Assembly (NCBI GenBank): GCA_945878575.1
Contig: CAMDUB010000008.1
Span: forward strand, 1-64,000
Direction: 5' to 3'
DNA length: 64,000 bases
Origin: Phycisphaera mikurensis NBRC 102666
Lineage (GTDB): Bacteria; Planctomycetota; Phycisphaerae; Phycisphaerales; SM1A02
Of this stretch, positions 8,780-18,397 are shown piece after piece. The position numbers were made by a program, and so were the translations under genes. The notes beneath the pieces are model-generated. The model made no database searches. It saw nothing but the letters and a program-made list of their open reading frames with translations, and was not told the origin of the DNA. Each line of letters opens with the position of its first letter. Position 1 is the first letter of the stretch.

Positions 8780-10201
8780 ATGGCTTCCCCCTCTGAAACC
8801 CCTGATCTTGAGGCCCTCCTGACCCGTGGAGCCTTTGGGGAAGTCCTGCTACGAACCAGCGCAAGCCTGCGCCGAAACCCCCGAGATTTTCGCTCCTGGT
8901 ACGCCAACGCCCGAGCAGCCTTTGCTCTGGGGCGCCTGACCGTCGCCGACGAGTCCATCGAACGCGCCATCCGCCTCAGCGGAACCTCCCCGGAGATTGC
9001 CCTGCTGCGGGCCATCATCGACCACCGACTCGGCCGCAGCGACGCCGCCATCGACCGCCTCCGCACTCTCATCGCCCGCGGATCACCCAACACCACGGAC
9101 GCCACCATGGTGCTTGCGGAAGTGCTCCACCGCGCGGGGCGCCGGCAAGAACTGCAAGCACTGGTGAGCGGCGGCGGCGCCTGGCTCAACGACCCGCGCG
9201 CGCCGATCTTCACCGCACGGGTGACCGCACTGACGGACCCCGCCGGCACCGCCGACCGACTGGAAGCCTTCGCACGCAGCGACGCGCTTGCCATGGCGCG
9301 CCGCATCGCTGGCTTCGATGCGGTCCGCATGCTTGATGCCGCGGGCGAGTACCGCCGTGCCTTTGCACTGGCGGAACACCTGCACGCCACCACCGGCGAA
9401 CGCTTCGATGTTGACGGAGTGATTGCCGATGCCAACGCACAATCAGCGCTGCTCGCCCGCGGCAAGCCATGGTTCACGCCGCGCGCGCCCGCGGTGAATG
9501 GCGTTGCGCTGGTGGTTGGCATGCCCCGCAGCGGCACCACCCTGCTTGAGCAGATGCTTGATCGCCATTCCGCGGTGACTGGCATCGGCGAGTACGACGG
9601 CATCAACACACTGGGCACTGCAGTCATCTCCGCTGGCGCATGGCCAACCGGACTGGCAATGCTGACCACTGATGAAGCGCTGGCGATGCAGCAGGCCTAT
9701 CTATCAGGCATCGCTTCCATGCGACGCGGCAATACTCAGTGGATGTTCGACAAGTCACTCAACACCTGGCACTGGTTGCCCGCTGTCGCGGCCGTCATGC
9801 CGGGCGCCGTGTGCTTCCACATCATGCGCGAACCGCGCGACACGGCGGTCAGCCTGTTTCTCTCGAACTTCCATCCAAAAAACGTCGGTTGGACAAGCTC
9901 GTTGGAAAGCATCCGCCGCATCATCGCCACCGAGCGGGCGCTGGTGCCGCAAGCCCTGCAAACCCTGGGAATCCCGCACGAATCGATCGTCTACGAAGAG
10001 TTGGTTGCCGACCCGCGCAGCCACATGGAGCGGTGCCTGCAGCGCATGGGCTTGCCGATGGAAGATTCCGTTCTTGCGCCGGAAGCAAACGCGCGCACCG
10101 TGCTGACTCTGAGCCATGAGCAGGTACGCAAGCCGATCAACCGATCGTCCATTGGGCGCTGGAAAAACTATGAATGGGCGTTCGGTAAAGAGTGGGACTG
10201 A
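8780..10201 (+). CDS. TPR-containing sulfotransferase (first of tandem pair)
   Basis: The 473-residue protein has an N-terminal helical half of TPR-like repeats (about 10-220) and a C-terminal sulfotransferase domain. The PAPS 5'-phosphosulfate loop is GMPRSGTTLLEQML near residues 247-260. The 3'-phosphate site is IMREPRDTAVSLF. A closing EQVRKPINRSSIGRWKNYE motif is typical of TPR-sulfotransferases in bacteria. I use the ATG at 8780; a TTG at 8723 lies in the same frame but has little support. The expected reaction is transfer of sulfate from PAPS to an acceptor that cannot be identified here. It shares order, length and motifs with the next gene, so the two arose by tandem duplication. Confidence 0.88.
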   Translation: MASPSETPDLEALLTRGAFGEVLLRTSASLRRNPRDFRSWYANARAAFALGRLTVADESIERAIRLSGTSPEIALLRAIIDHRLGRSDAAIDRLRTLIARGSPNTTDATMVLAEVLHRAGRRQELQALVSGGGAWLNDPRAPIFTARVTALTDPAGTADRLEAFARSDALAMARRIAGFDAVRMLDAAGEYRRAFALAEHLHATTGERFDVDGVIADANAQSALLARGKPWFTPRAPAVNGVALVVGMPRSGTTLLEQMLDRHSAVTGIGEYDGINTLGTAVISAGAWPTGLAMLTTDEALAMQQAYLSGIASMRRGNTQWMFDKSLNTWHWLPAVAAVMPGAVCFHIMREPRDTAVSLFLSNFHPKNVGWTSSLESIRRIIATERALVPQALQTLGIPHESIVYEELVADPRSHMERCLQRMGLPMEDSVLAPEANARTVLTLSHEQVRKPINRSSIGRWKNYEWAFGKEWD

Positions 10202-10254
10202 TCGAGTATTTCGCGCAGCGGCCGCACCGCTGTGACTAGTAGCATCCGAACTCC

Positions 10255-11718
10255 ATGCCACCTCCTGTCAATCAACGGGCAGAACTTCAGCGCTTGCTGC
10301 AACGCGGCGATTTCCTGAATGCCAAGCATCTTGCGGGCGACATGTTGCGCCGCAACCCGCGCGACGGCGAGGCATGGCTTGGTGTTGCACGTTGCGCGAT
10401 CGGTATGAACCGCATGCGAGTTGCAGAAGAAGCGCTCGAACGCGCGGAGCGCATGATCACTGGCGACCACCGCATTGGCATGGCATGGGCGATCGTTGAT
10501 CACTACCTCGCTCGCAGCGACAAGGCCATTGATCGCCTGCGCGTCTTGATTGCGCGCAAGGCGCCGAACGCGCTGGACGCAACCATCTTCCTCGCTGACA
10601 TCCTGCACCGCACCGGAAAGCGTGCAGAAATGAAGGCCTTGGTTGAGCAAGGCGGCATGTGGCTCACTGATGTGCGCGGCCGAATCATGGCGGCACGTGT
10701 GCGCGCGAAAGATGACCGCGAAGGTGCGGTTACTGAGTTTGAAGCAATCGCACGCGAGCCAGGCGAAATGTCCATGCGCCGCAACGCGGGGTTCGAAGCA
10801 GTGCAGTTGCTCGATTCTGCTGGCGAATATCGCCGCGCGTGGGAACTTGCCACGTACATCCACGAACACACCGCCCCACTCTTCAACCTTTCCGACATGC
10901 ACGCGGACGTCCATGCGCAGCGGCAACTGCTTGCCAACGGCAAGGCCTGGTTCAACCCGCGCGTTCCGGAGGTGCAAGGCATTGCATTCATTGTTGGAAT
11001 GCCGCGCAGTGGCACAACGCTCCTTGAGCAAATGCTGGACCGGCATTCCTGCGTCGCTGGAATCGGCGAGTACGAAGGGATCATGGCGCTTGGAGATTCG
11101 CTGGTTCATGCGGGTGCATGGCCGCGCGGACTTGGCACCCTGAGTCCAGAAGATGCGGTGATGTTTCAGAACAACTACATCTCCGGCGCGCGGACACCAG
11201 ACGTAGCAGGCAAGGCGTGGTTGGTAGACAAGTCGCTCCAGACATGGCGCTGGCTGCCTGCTGTTGCCGCCATTCTGCCCGGCGCAAGTTGCATGCACAT
11301 CACCCGCGATCCACGTGACACGGCGGTGAGTTTGTATCTCTCTAGTTTTAACCCCAAGCACTTTGGTTGGACCGGTTCAGTCGGCGGCATCCGCGAAGTC
11401 ATGACCGCCGAACGCGCGCTCTCCATGGAAGCACTTTCTGTACTCAAGATTCGCCACGAAGAAATTGTGTACGAAGACTTGATCGAAGACCCCGACGGAC
11501 ACGCGCAACGGGTCACCAACTTCCTAGGAATTGCACCGGAATCTGACATGCTTCGCCCGGAGGACAACACGCGCACGGTGTTGACGCTGAGCCATGAGCA
11601 AGTCCGACGCCCCATCAATCGAACCTCGATCGGCCGCTGGAAAAACTACGAATCCGCGTTTGGACCGGAATGGGACGCGCTGGTAGCCACCCACAATTCT
11701 CGCCGGCGCTGTCCCTGA
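10255..11718 (+). CDS. TPR-containing sulfotransferase (second of tandem pair)
   Basis: This 487-residue paralog of the preceding gene lies 53 bp downstream. The N-terminal TPR-like half starts PPPVNQRAELQRLLQRGDF. The C-terminal sulfotransferase domain has GMPRSGTTLLEQML at about residue 248, a 3'-phosphate motif ITRDPRDTAVSLY, and the closing EQVRRPINRTSIGRWKNYE. The catalytic motifs are intact in both copies, while the TPR halves and loops have diverged, which suggests different acceptors rather than dosage. The short spacing and shared strand point to one transcript. Sulfated products could be surface polysaccharide or protein; this is inference only. Confidence 0.88.
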   Translation: MPPPVNQRAELQRLLQRGDFLNAKHLAGDMLRRNPRDGEAWLGVARCAIGMNRMRVAEEALERAERMITGDHRIGMAWAIVDHYLARSDKAIDRLRVLIARKAPNALDATIFLADILHRTGKRAEMKALVEQGGMWLTDVRGRIMAARVRAKDDREGAVTEFEAIAREPGEMSMRRNAGFEAVQLLDSAGEYRRAWELATYIHEHTAPLFNLSDMHADVHAQRQLLANGKAWFNPRVPEVQGIAFIVGMPRSGTTLLEQMLDRHSCVAGIGEYEGIMALGDSLVHAGAWPRGLGTLSPEDAVMFQNNYISGARTPDVAGKAWLVDKSLQTWRWLPAVAAILPGASCMHITRDPRDTAVSLYLSSFNPKHFGWTGSVGGIREVMTAERALSMEALSVLKIRHEEIVYEDLIEDPDGHAQRVTNFLGIAPESDMLRPEDNTRTVLTLSHEQVRRPINRTSIGRWKNYESAFGPEWDALVATHNSRRRCP

Positions 11719-15972: not shown

Positions 15973-16044
15973 GCGGGTGTAACTCAGTGGTAGAGTGCCA
16001 CCTTGCCAAGGTGGACGTCGAGGGTTCGAGTCCCTTCACCCGCT
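15973..16044 (+). tRNA. tRNA-Gly (anticodon GCC)
   Basis: A full cloverleaf can be drawn. The acceptor stem is GCGGGTG/CACCCGC. The D stem is ACTC/GAGT. The anticodon stem CCACC/GGTGG has loop TTGCCAA, giving anticodon GCC. The T stem GAGGG/CCCTT has loop TTCGAGT. The discriminator is T and the CCA end is not encoded. Confidence 0.97.
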
Positions 16045-16053
16045 CTTAAGCTT

Positions 16054-16092
16054 GAAGCCGAAGGTCTGTGCCTTCGGCTTCTGTGCTTTTTG
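16054..16092 (+). terminator. Terminator of tRNA-Gly
   Basis: An 11-bp perfect stem (16054-16064 with 16071-16081, loop of 6 nt) is followed by a T-rich tail about 10 nt after the tRNA end. Confidence 0.85.
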
Positions 16093-16163
16093 GGGTGTCC
16101 GATGCACTCCAGCCGACGCCCAATCTCCACACATCCACGCCGCCCTGACCGCCAATCCGCCAA

Positions 16164-17141
16164 TCAGCGCTGCGCCTGCGCCGCATCCGCGAGTACCAAT
16201 GCCAGCCGCCATCGGTCGCGCGTGGGTTTGGCGTACTCCAATGGGTAGTTGTCGATCAGGCTCTCCGCGGAATCGGTGATCACCGGCCGCATGACCGGAT
16301 CGCGCGCGTACTCGACGAGCATCTCCATCGGCACGCGGAGTGCCCACCGGGACGCGAAACCCAGCGATTCAACCGAGGTCGGGTCGCCGGCTGCCTTGTG
16401 CTCCAGGTACAGCCGGATGGCGCGCGGGTGGTGGTGGAGGTCGAGCTCCGCGCAAGCCTCCCAGCCGATGCTCGAGTTCGCAAGCCCGAGCGAATCGGCG
16501 AATCCCTCCGCGGCAAGCTCGCGCGTACGCCGGAACCAGCGGATCGCCTCCGCGGGATCGTCGAATTGGTACGAGCGACCGATCATGAACGCAGCCCATG
16601 TCGAGCGCCACACCCGGTCGGCGGGCGGCATGGCAAGGAGCGCGTGCCACGTCGCCCGCGCGCCGGGCAGGTTGCGTGATTCCGCGAGCGAACGACCCGC
16701 GAGGTAGATGGCGAACTCTGCCGCCGCCGGCCCGCAGCCGTCGAGCTCTTCGCCCAGCGGCTCGCCAAATCGGCCCTCGACGATCGACCACAGCAGGCGC
16801 GCGATGCGGACGTCGCTCACATCGTCACGGAAGAGCGGCACGTAGCGGTAGTCCGCTGGCGGGAGATCCACCAGCGTGCCCACCGGCCCAGGCGGCAGAC
16901 CGCCGGACCAGATCACCCTGCCCATGAGGCCGGTGGCCGGAACGCGGCGCGGGTCCTGTGCGCCTGTTAGCGGCGACGTCTTGGAATCCGGCAACGGCGC
17001 GCCAATGCGCTCGCCCTCCGAAATCGCAGGCACACCCACCAGCACGAACCACGCGATCAGCGGAAAGACCACCGCGATCAGCGGCAGCAGATGCCATCGA
17101 TGCGACGTACCCCAAGTTGTGTGCGGATGCTCAGTGCCCAT
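16164..17141 (-). CDS. Membrane-anchored helical protein of unknown function
   Basis: This 325-residue protein has one N-terminal membrane segment (about residues 19-38, LLPLIAVVFPLIAWFVLVGV) preceded by a His-rich cytoplasmic end. The rest is mostly helical and Ala/Arg-rich, with TPR-like stretches such as AEFAIYLAGRSLAES and DDPAEAIRWFRRTRELA. The start at 17141 is well supported: a GGAGGG Shine-Dalgarno lies 17144-17151 on the minus strand. I recognise no family. It is divergent from, and 242 bp from, a membrane-anchored RuvB-like protein that also has a strong ribosome binding site, so the two may share a regulatory region and act together. That link is inference. Confidence 0.8.
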   Translation of the reverse strand: MGTEHPHTTWGTSHRWHLLPLIAVVFPLIAWFVLVGVPAISEGERIGAPLPDSKTSPLTGAQDPRRVPATGLMGRVIWSGGLPPGPVGTLVDLPPADYRYVPLFRDDVSDVRIARLLWSIVEGRFGEPLGEELDGCGPAAAEFAIYLAGRSLAESRNLPGARATWHALLAMPPADRVWRSTWAAFMIGRSYQFDDPAEAIRWFRRTRELAAEGFADSLGLANSSIGWEACAELDLHHHPRAIRLYLEHKAAGDPTSVESLGFASRWALRVPMEMLVEYARDPVMRPVITDSAESLIDNYPLEYAKPTRDRWRLALVLADAAQAQR

Positions 17142-17383
17142 GGTTCCCTCCTAGCGCAGGCGCGGCGTCCCATCCTGGAACGCACTCATGACAGCATCGG
17201 TCGCCACGCGGGATGCAGTTGAGTGAATGCGATGGTGAAATTCCTATCTGCCAGTTGGTGCAAGAATCGACGGCGGCAATGAACACGCCACGAAATCTGC
17301 GAACGAGATTCCGCCCCGCCCCGCAACCTCCCCCGCCCGCCCTCCGTATAGTGCTCACGTCCAAGCACCCCTCCGGAGGCACC

Positions 17384-18397
17384 ATGGCAAATCAACGATC
17401 CGGGCCCGTCCAGTTGCCCTCGCTGCTCGAACTGCAGGCACCAACGCTGAACCACATGTCAGAGGCGCCGGGCCTGGCGGCAACGCTTGCGCGCGCGGTG
17501 CAGGCGAGCCTGGAGACCGGACCGCGCTTCCCCCACCTGCTGCTGATCGGGCCCGCCGACAGCGGCAAGCAGACCATCGCCGCCACCGTGGCCCGGGAGC
17601 TGGGGGCGCCGCTCGTCTGCATCAACCCTGCCTCGCTCCAGGGGTCGGACGAACTGCATGACATCCTGATGACGGTGCCTCACGGGGCGGTGGTCCTGGT
17701 TGGCAACCTCGAGGGACAGTGGGCCATCTGCAGCGACCTGTGCCGCGTGGCGCAGGGCGACCGGGTGCGGAAGAGGCCGACGCCGCCGTGGGAGCTTTCG
17801 GGCGAAGGCTGGAAGCGCACGGACGCCGACGAGCCGTACCGCCAGTTCACCATCATCGCCACCACGCGCGACACCAACGCCGAGGGCTATGGATGCACCG
17901 CGTGGGCGGAGATGGTCCTCTACACGACCCGCACCGCCAGCACGGAATCCTTGCGCATCGACCGCACGCTGCGCCGCGTTGGGCTTTCGTCGGACACGGA
18001 AGCGCTCGCGAAGCTGGCCGAGTTCGCGGTGAACTCTGGGGTCCGCACGCTGCGGCTGGCGCGTTCCATCGCACTGTGGGCCGGTGAGCGCAACGCCACC
18101 ACGCTGAATGCGGAACTGGCGACGGTGGCCCTCGGAGAGCTCAGCGATCAGCTGGTGGAACCCGCACGGCTCGTACATCTGCGCAGCGGAAAGCCGGCGA
18201 ACGCAAGCAAGTCCGCCGCATCACCCACCGGCGAGTGGAGCGACGCTTCCGCCACCGAAACCGCCTCGCGAGAGACCGGCCCGACTACCAAGCAGCTCCT
18301 CGCTGCATCCGTGCTCGTGGTGGCCATCGTGGCCTCGGCCATGTTCCTGGCGATGGGGACGTACCACCTGATCTTCGGCCGCCTGCCGAGCCCGTGA
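17384..18397 (+). CDS. RuvB-like protein with degenerate ATPase motifs and a C-terminal membrane anchor
   Basis: The 337-residue protein resembles the AAA core of RuvB (Holliday-junction helicase): FPHLLLIGPADSGKQT at the Walker A position, the sensor-1-like FTIIATTRD, and a helical lid after residue 190. Key residues are altered. Walker A G56-PADSG-K62 is followed by Gln63 instead of Ser/Thr. The Walker B position reads VVLVGNLEG (residues 103-111) where RuvB has acidic DE. The arginine-finger region of RuvB is not recognisable. A C-terminal hydrophobic segment (about 303-327) would anchor it in the membrane, which RuvB never has. The start at 17384 is fixed by CGGAGG at 17374-17379. It is probably a non-hydrolysing scaffold or sensor; this is inference. 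Confidence 0.78.
   Translation: MANQRSGPVQLPSLLELQAPTLNHMSEAPGLAATLARAVQASLETGPRFPHLLLIGPADSGKQTIAATVARELGAPLVCINPASLQGSDELHDILMTVPHGAVVLVGNLEGQWAICSDLCRVAQGDRVRKRPTPPWELSGEGWKRTDADEPYRQFTIIATTRDTNAEGYGCTAWAEMVLYTTRTASTESLRIDRTLRRVGLSSDTEALAKLAEFAVNSGVRTLRLARSIALWAGERNATTLNAELATVALGELSDQLVEPARLVHLRSGKPANASKSAASPTGEWSDASATETASRETGPTTKQLLAASVLVVAIVASAMFLAMGTYHLIFGRLPSP

Follow-up and report, generated by a model that had tools for sequence, protein, structure and literature searches.

A RuvB-derived, probable pseudo-ATPase with a C-terminal membrane helix in planctomycetes

The window, by which we mean the whole 64,000-nucleotide stretch of planctomycete DNA that was analysed, carries a gene for a 337-residue protein that descends from RuvB, has lost most motifs of the RuvB motor, ends in a membrane helix, is under purifying selection and has no conserved partner gene. 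We call this protein type A, as the first of several related types. Its RuvB ancestry is clear; its function is not. We lean, with a little better than even confidence, towards a membrane-tethered, non-hydrolysing AAA+ scaffold or switch that works independently of the TPR-like gene beside it. To our knowledge, RuvB is regarded as a universal and strictly soluble recombination motor. A lineage that retains multiple RuvB copies under selection, apparently without catalysis and in one case with a membrane anchor, offers a plain bacterial example of a DNA motor turned pseudoenzyme, and a defined group of proteins for studying the role of the RuvB fold in the absence of ATP hydrolysis. A first-pass annotation made from the sequence had placed both genes of this divergent pair correctly and had proposed that one of them encodes a pseudo-ATPase, a RuvB core put to new use and attached to the membrane, which sequence, profile, structure prediction and selection now back.

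Table 1. Positions in the window of the type-A gene, the TPR-like gene and their features.
Feature	Residues	Position	Strand	Basis or remark
tRNA-Gly (GCC)		15973..16045	+	directly before the variable stretch
Stretch missing at the same site in genome G002		16091..17241		synteny break; contains the whole TPR-like gene
TPR-like single-span gene (P0001)	325 aa	16164..17141	-	separate gene, not in a conserved pair
N-terminal membrane helix of the TPR-like protein	13-34	17040..17105	-	predicted
Strong ribosome binding site CCGGAGG		17373..17379	+	just 5' of the ATG at 17384; read from the sequence
Type-A RuvB-derived tail-anchored pseudo-ATPase gene	337 aa	17384..18397	+	stop included; Pfam, G002 ortholog, dN/dS
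Altered Walker A, GPADSGKQT	56-64	17549..17575	+	alignment with genuine RuvBs
Walker B position, VVLVGNLE	103-110	17690..17713	+	alignment
Walker B-to-sensor-1 region	111-154	17714..17845	+	AlphaFold2: helix and low-confidence loop
Sensor-1 strand, FTIIATTRD	155-163	17846..17872	+	alignment
Arginine-finger position, CTAWAE	171-176	17894..17911	+	alignment
Possible sensor-2 segment, SGVRTL	218-223	18035..18052	+	alignment
Disordered, fast-evolving linker	270-303	18191..18292	+	pLDDT, dN/dS
C-terminal membrane helix	305-323	18296..18352	+	ends 14 residues before the C-terminus

Descent from RuvB

Searched alone, the type-A protein matched the NCBIfam RuvB model (E 3.8e-7) and, at 25.3 bits (E 1.5e-5), fell slightly below the 27-bit curated cut-off of Pfam RuvB_N. 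A family profile, made from an alignment of 15 relatives and set against 11 genuine planctomycete RuvBs, matched them with a probability of 96.8 (E 2.9e-10) over RuvB model columns 26-222, which take in the P-loop domain and a portion of the lid. The same profile found RuvB as its top match among PDB sequences (E 8.6e-9). AlphaFold2 modelled the core confidently (pLDDT about 90), and a Foldseek comparison of this model with the PDB, a check that the first-pass annotation had suggested, recovered the RuvB fold: the first 43 matches were RuvB chains or complexes, the best with an E-value of 4.2e-14. Compared with the domains of RuvB (Pfam RuvB_N, AAA_lid_4 and RuvB_C), type A keeps the fold, the order of P-loop domain and lid, and the spacing from Walker A to Walker B. 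We find it extremely improbable that the protein is a degenerate clamp-loader subunit of the delta-prime kind and no relative of RuvB, a reading to which weak PHROG matches point (E 1.7e-3 and 1.4e-4) but which RuvB outscored in Pfam, NCBIfam, the PDB profile search and Foldseek.

Genuine RuvA, RuvB and RuvC are encoded elsewhere in the same genome, with RuvB on contig C1, so the type-A gene is an extra copy. Strong ribosome binding sites precede both it and the TPR-like gene and are, as had been remarked, uncommon here: AGGAG or GGAGG occurs no more than 20 nt upstream of 5 of the 46 window genes of at least 100 aa, these two included.

Loss of the motor motifs

In RuvB, ATP is handled by Lys65 and Thr66 of Walker A, the finger residue Arg171 and the sensor-2 residue Arg218, and the presensor-1 beta-hairpin is the binding site for RuvA domain III (PMC9477746). 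Alignment of type A with genuine RuvBs confirmed the two RuvB-like motifs quoted in the first-pass annotation (Walker A and the sensor-1 strand), and also the glutamine that it had reported: Lys62 is retained, and Gln63 replaces the Mg-binding Thr. The further claim that the Walker B acids are gone stood in substance, since in an ungapped alignment starting at Walker A the Asp and Glu columns hold Gly107 and Asn108, but the segment VGNLEG (residues 106-111), described earlier as free of acidic residues, has one: Glu110 sits three residues past the Asp column, at the His of DEIH. The arginine-finger column holds Trp174, conserved across the subfamily, so that a check of the Walker B and finger columns against RuvB, also suggested earlier, found both the acids and the finger Arg absent. 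Other residues conserved in the subfamily are RFPH, R191, R194 and R221.

Beyond the nucleotide site, the alignment with genuine RuvBs revealed no MEDF trans-signature. AlphaFold2 predicted no strands for a presensor-1 hairpin in residues 107-155, a region of partly low confidence. No Pfam match to the C-terminal winged helix (RuvB_C) was obtained, and only a disordered linker and the membrane helix follow the lid. Type A therefore differs from RuvB in lacking the Walker B acids, the Mg-binding Thr, the finger, the winged helix and the predicted hairpin, and in carrying a membrane helix; with these losses it would be a RuvB paralog without motor function, reduced to the P-loop domain and lid. 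Eukaryotic RUVBL1 and RUVBL2 (pontin and reptin) are RuvB-related AAA+ proteins that serve as scaffolds, but their ATPase is active and they contain a domain II insertion that the window protein does not have.

Could the protein still act on branch migration, as a regulatory subunit, taken up into the genuine RuvB ring or bound to RuvA, that tunes or blocks the process at the membrane? The shared fold and the genuine RuvABC in the same genome would suit such a role. We nevertheless think it unlikely, given the unpredicted hairpin, the lost trans-signature and finger, the lack of a DNA-binding domain, and the position of the gene, distant from the ruv genes.

Possible remnants of nucleotide handling

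Some features count against a wholly non-hydrolysing protein. Degenerate AAA+ proteins can retain weak hydrolysis, and the conserved acid three residues past the Walker B Asp column could in principle compensate for the lost ones: that column is acidic (E or D) in 28 of 28 pseudo-type sequences, whereas it holds His in 22 of 22 active RuvBs. The Walker B Glu is absent from all 28 pseudo-type sequences and the Asp from 27 of them. The sensor-2 Arg may be retained as Arg221, whose register against RuvB sensor 2 is uncertain by one residue, and this hints at nucleotide handling.

The main rival to our reading builds on these features. The protein would be a slow nucleotide switch that, like Staphylococcus aureus PcdA, binds and weakly hydrolyses ATP, and whose cycle controls assembly at the membrane. 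PcdA has a degraded Walker A and lacks the Walker B Glu, yet it turns over about 1 ATP per minute (PMC10602043), and so sets a precedent for slow hydrolysis in a degraded, reused AAA+ motor. Like type A, it derives from a DNA-processing motor and is lineage-restricted; it differs in being an McrB-derived cell-division factor with EVE domains and in keeping the Mg-chelating Asp, and the available text reports no tail anchor for it (PMC10602043). We give the slow switch appreciable but clearly minor weight. Lys62, the sensor-1-like strand, the possible Arg221 and the invariant Walker B +3 acid are conserved, which speaks for it; on the other side, the loss of the Walker B acids, Mg-binding Thr and finger goes further than in PcdA, and the sister pseudo types have additionally lost the Walker A Gly or Lys.

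A predicted tail anchor

The terminal membrane helix described in the first-pass annotation was borne out by hydropathy, with the best 19-residue value, 2.65, at residues 305-323, and by an AlphaFold2 helix at residues 304-330. It lies at the same position in the orthologs of G002, G030, G013 and G166 and is common to type-A orthologs as little as 34-36% identical; by hydropathy every type-A ortholog has it and no other subtype does. The protein has the layout of a tail-anchored protein, with a single C-terminal helix near its end and a soluble N-terminal domain, and some type-A orthologs continue for about 50 residues beyond the helix. The linker before it has a pLDDT below 50 (residues 270-309) and a dN/dS of about 1, calculated from few changes.

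Basic residues directly precede the helix in the G030 and G166 orthologs (KRRNKK and KRKKRNK), which by the positive-inside rule suggests a cytoplasmic core. In the arrangement that we infer for orientation, oligomerisation, nucleotide binding and scaffold role, the core would face the cytoplasm at the inner membrane, to which it would be tail-anchored, since the disordered linker leads into the C-terminal membrane helix. There it would bind partners as a scaffold or conformational switch, perhaps with nucleotide held through Lys62.

Selection

The closest relative, an ortholog in genome G002 of the same genus, is 96% identical in protein sequence. Between this near ortholog and the window gene dN/dS is 0.24, a value that rests on just 13 non-synonymous and 19 synonymous changes and to that extent tempers our reading; for the paralogs of types B and D it is 0.11 and 0.06. 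This purifying selection indicates that the gene is not decaying. A functionless RuvB duplicate on its way out would fit the loss of most catalytic motifs and the narrow distribution, and yet we regard it as quite unlikely, because the frame is intact, selection is purifying, and RFPH, W174, R191, R194, R221 and the membrane helix are conserved. On the dN/dS value and the conserved residues, the pseudogene reading was dropped.

The TPR-like neighbour

The first-pass annotation had joined the two genes into one envelope-linked sensing or defence module. Its description of the minus-strand protein held: a single membrane helix is predicted, and the helical repeats resemble TPR structures, weakly by E-value (best 2e-3) and with a local TM-score of up to 0.83. 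P0001 is a half-length member of a separate family, as its relatives have about 640 aa and it covers only profile positions 7-307.

A two-gene module would be in keeping with the divergent arrangement, the 242 bp between the genes, their strong ribosome binding sites and their single spans, but the comparative data make it very unlikely. In G002 the locus has no TPR gene: the DNA flanking the missing segment on either side is 90-92% identical to the window, where that segment lies between tRNA-Gly and the RuvB-like gene. Since this exact locus is assembled in G002, the absence is real even though the MAGs are incomplete. Among 181 genomes from the window's taxonomic family, 9 carry the TPR family (G000, the window's own genome, and G004, G009, G010, G122, G129, G135, G147 and G151), and only in G000 does it co-occur with a type-A gene, that is in 1 of 181 incomplete MAGs. 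At 10 loci of the TPR family that we inspected, no RuvB-like gene was found. The co-occurrence check suggested with the module thus found no conserved partnership, and by the annotation's own standard the conserved pair is refuted; at most, a recent link specific to this lineage could be left.

Nor did the proposed defence role gain support, as PADLOC, PHROGs and searches of phages and plasmids gave nothing specific. PADLOC gave the RuvB-like protein only a generic P-loop match to IetA, 31 residues long (E 0.0033), and the TPR-like protein none; the phage search gave no match, the sole plasmid match was an ordinary RuvB, and viral contigs contained no relative.

We also considered a conserved operon around type A, whose flanking genes encode a periplasmic binding protein, an LTD-domain protein and a large secreted protein, and rejected it: these genes are shared only with G002, and the neighbours of type A in genus g18 differ. 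Elsewhere in the window (8780-11715) there are two tandem TPR-sulfotransferase-like genes of about 66% DNA identity, which are in tandem in G002 too.

A family of RuvB pseudo-ATPases

Besides type A, the window's genome encodes a type-B pseudo-ATPase on contig C4 and a type-D one on contig C102. Matches came from 36 of the 181 genomes of the taxonomic family, a few of them genuine RuvBs and, in one genome, an HNH-RuvB fusion with intact motifs. The pseudo types were found in genera g1, g18, g43, g55 and g2, and type A itself in G000, G002, G030, G159 and G166. A further candidate, contig G013:C59 (L008), would have been a third type-A member from the window's genus. It is 3.2 kb long and, with a 3.5-kb gap, shares 97-98% identity with G030:C16 of another genus; on that identity it is probably mis-binned, and we left it uncounted.

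Among the sequences inspected from 400 genomes of the order and 392 of the phylum, only active RuvB2 proteins were added, so on this sample the pseudo-ATPases are restricted to one planctomycete family. The sole match outside the order in the phylum sample (G719) was likewise an active RuvB2. Types A, B, C and E group together in the tree with support of 100/99, and the active RuvB and RuvB2 sequences are all joined in a second clade, also supported at 100/99. This topology, unrooted and with long branches that meet, allows a single origin of the pseudo-ATPases. The five records that a narrow scan with the A5 pattern returned are all planctomycete MAGs; a pond is the source of at least one, and the remaining close members are probably lake MAGs, judging by their isolate names.

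What we call RuvB2 is an additional RuvB paralog that begins with PPTLxHVIGQ, is apparently active and occurs in another family of the order. It shares the N-terminal motifs PTLxH and PHTLL with the pseudo-ATPases but, unlike them, retains GPPGTGKT, DEAH/DEIH, LRDR and the C-terminal domain (L130-L133, L135-L137). A RuvB2-like protein also occurs elsewhere in the phylum (loci L130-L133, L135-L137 and L143 together).

A literature search, mostly of open-access journals, found no description of planctomycete RuvB pseudo-ATPases, and within that literature the family is previously undescribed. For annotation pipelines this is a warning that genes of the pseudo types should not be named RuvB helicases.

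Other subtypes and the WYL regulator

A gene for a WYL/WCX-domain regulator adjoins the type D or G pseudo-ATPase at 15 of 16 loci in two genera (G000:C102, with L053 5033-5941 and 3657-4358; L096; L105-L107; L113-L122). WYL regulators of the PafBC kind detect single-stranded DNA and govern DNA-damage responses (PMC11804915); for CapW the target is an immune operon (PMC9122588). The pairing hints at a DNA-stress setting for the pseudo-ATPase family, one that we do not extend to type A, which has no WYL/WCX neighbour at its loci. A larger non-motor AAA+ system, in which types A, B and D would form mixed rings or scaffolds, with A as the anchor and WYL regulators controlling other subtypes, with DNA damage or nucleic acids as the signal, strikes us as improbable.

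Genus g55 has a RuvB-derived type of its own (L075-L077, L081, L082, L087), with open frames of about 500-570 codons; it is without the Walker A Lys and the Walker B acids, and some members retain the arginine-finger motif LRxRF. The HNH-RuvB fusion (L084 220-2364, on G036:C96, with a second copy on G036:C122) joins a complete RuvB, with intact Walker motifs and the winged helix, to an N-terminal region and an HNH endonuclease domain in a single frame.
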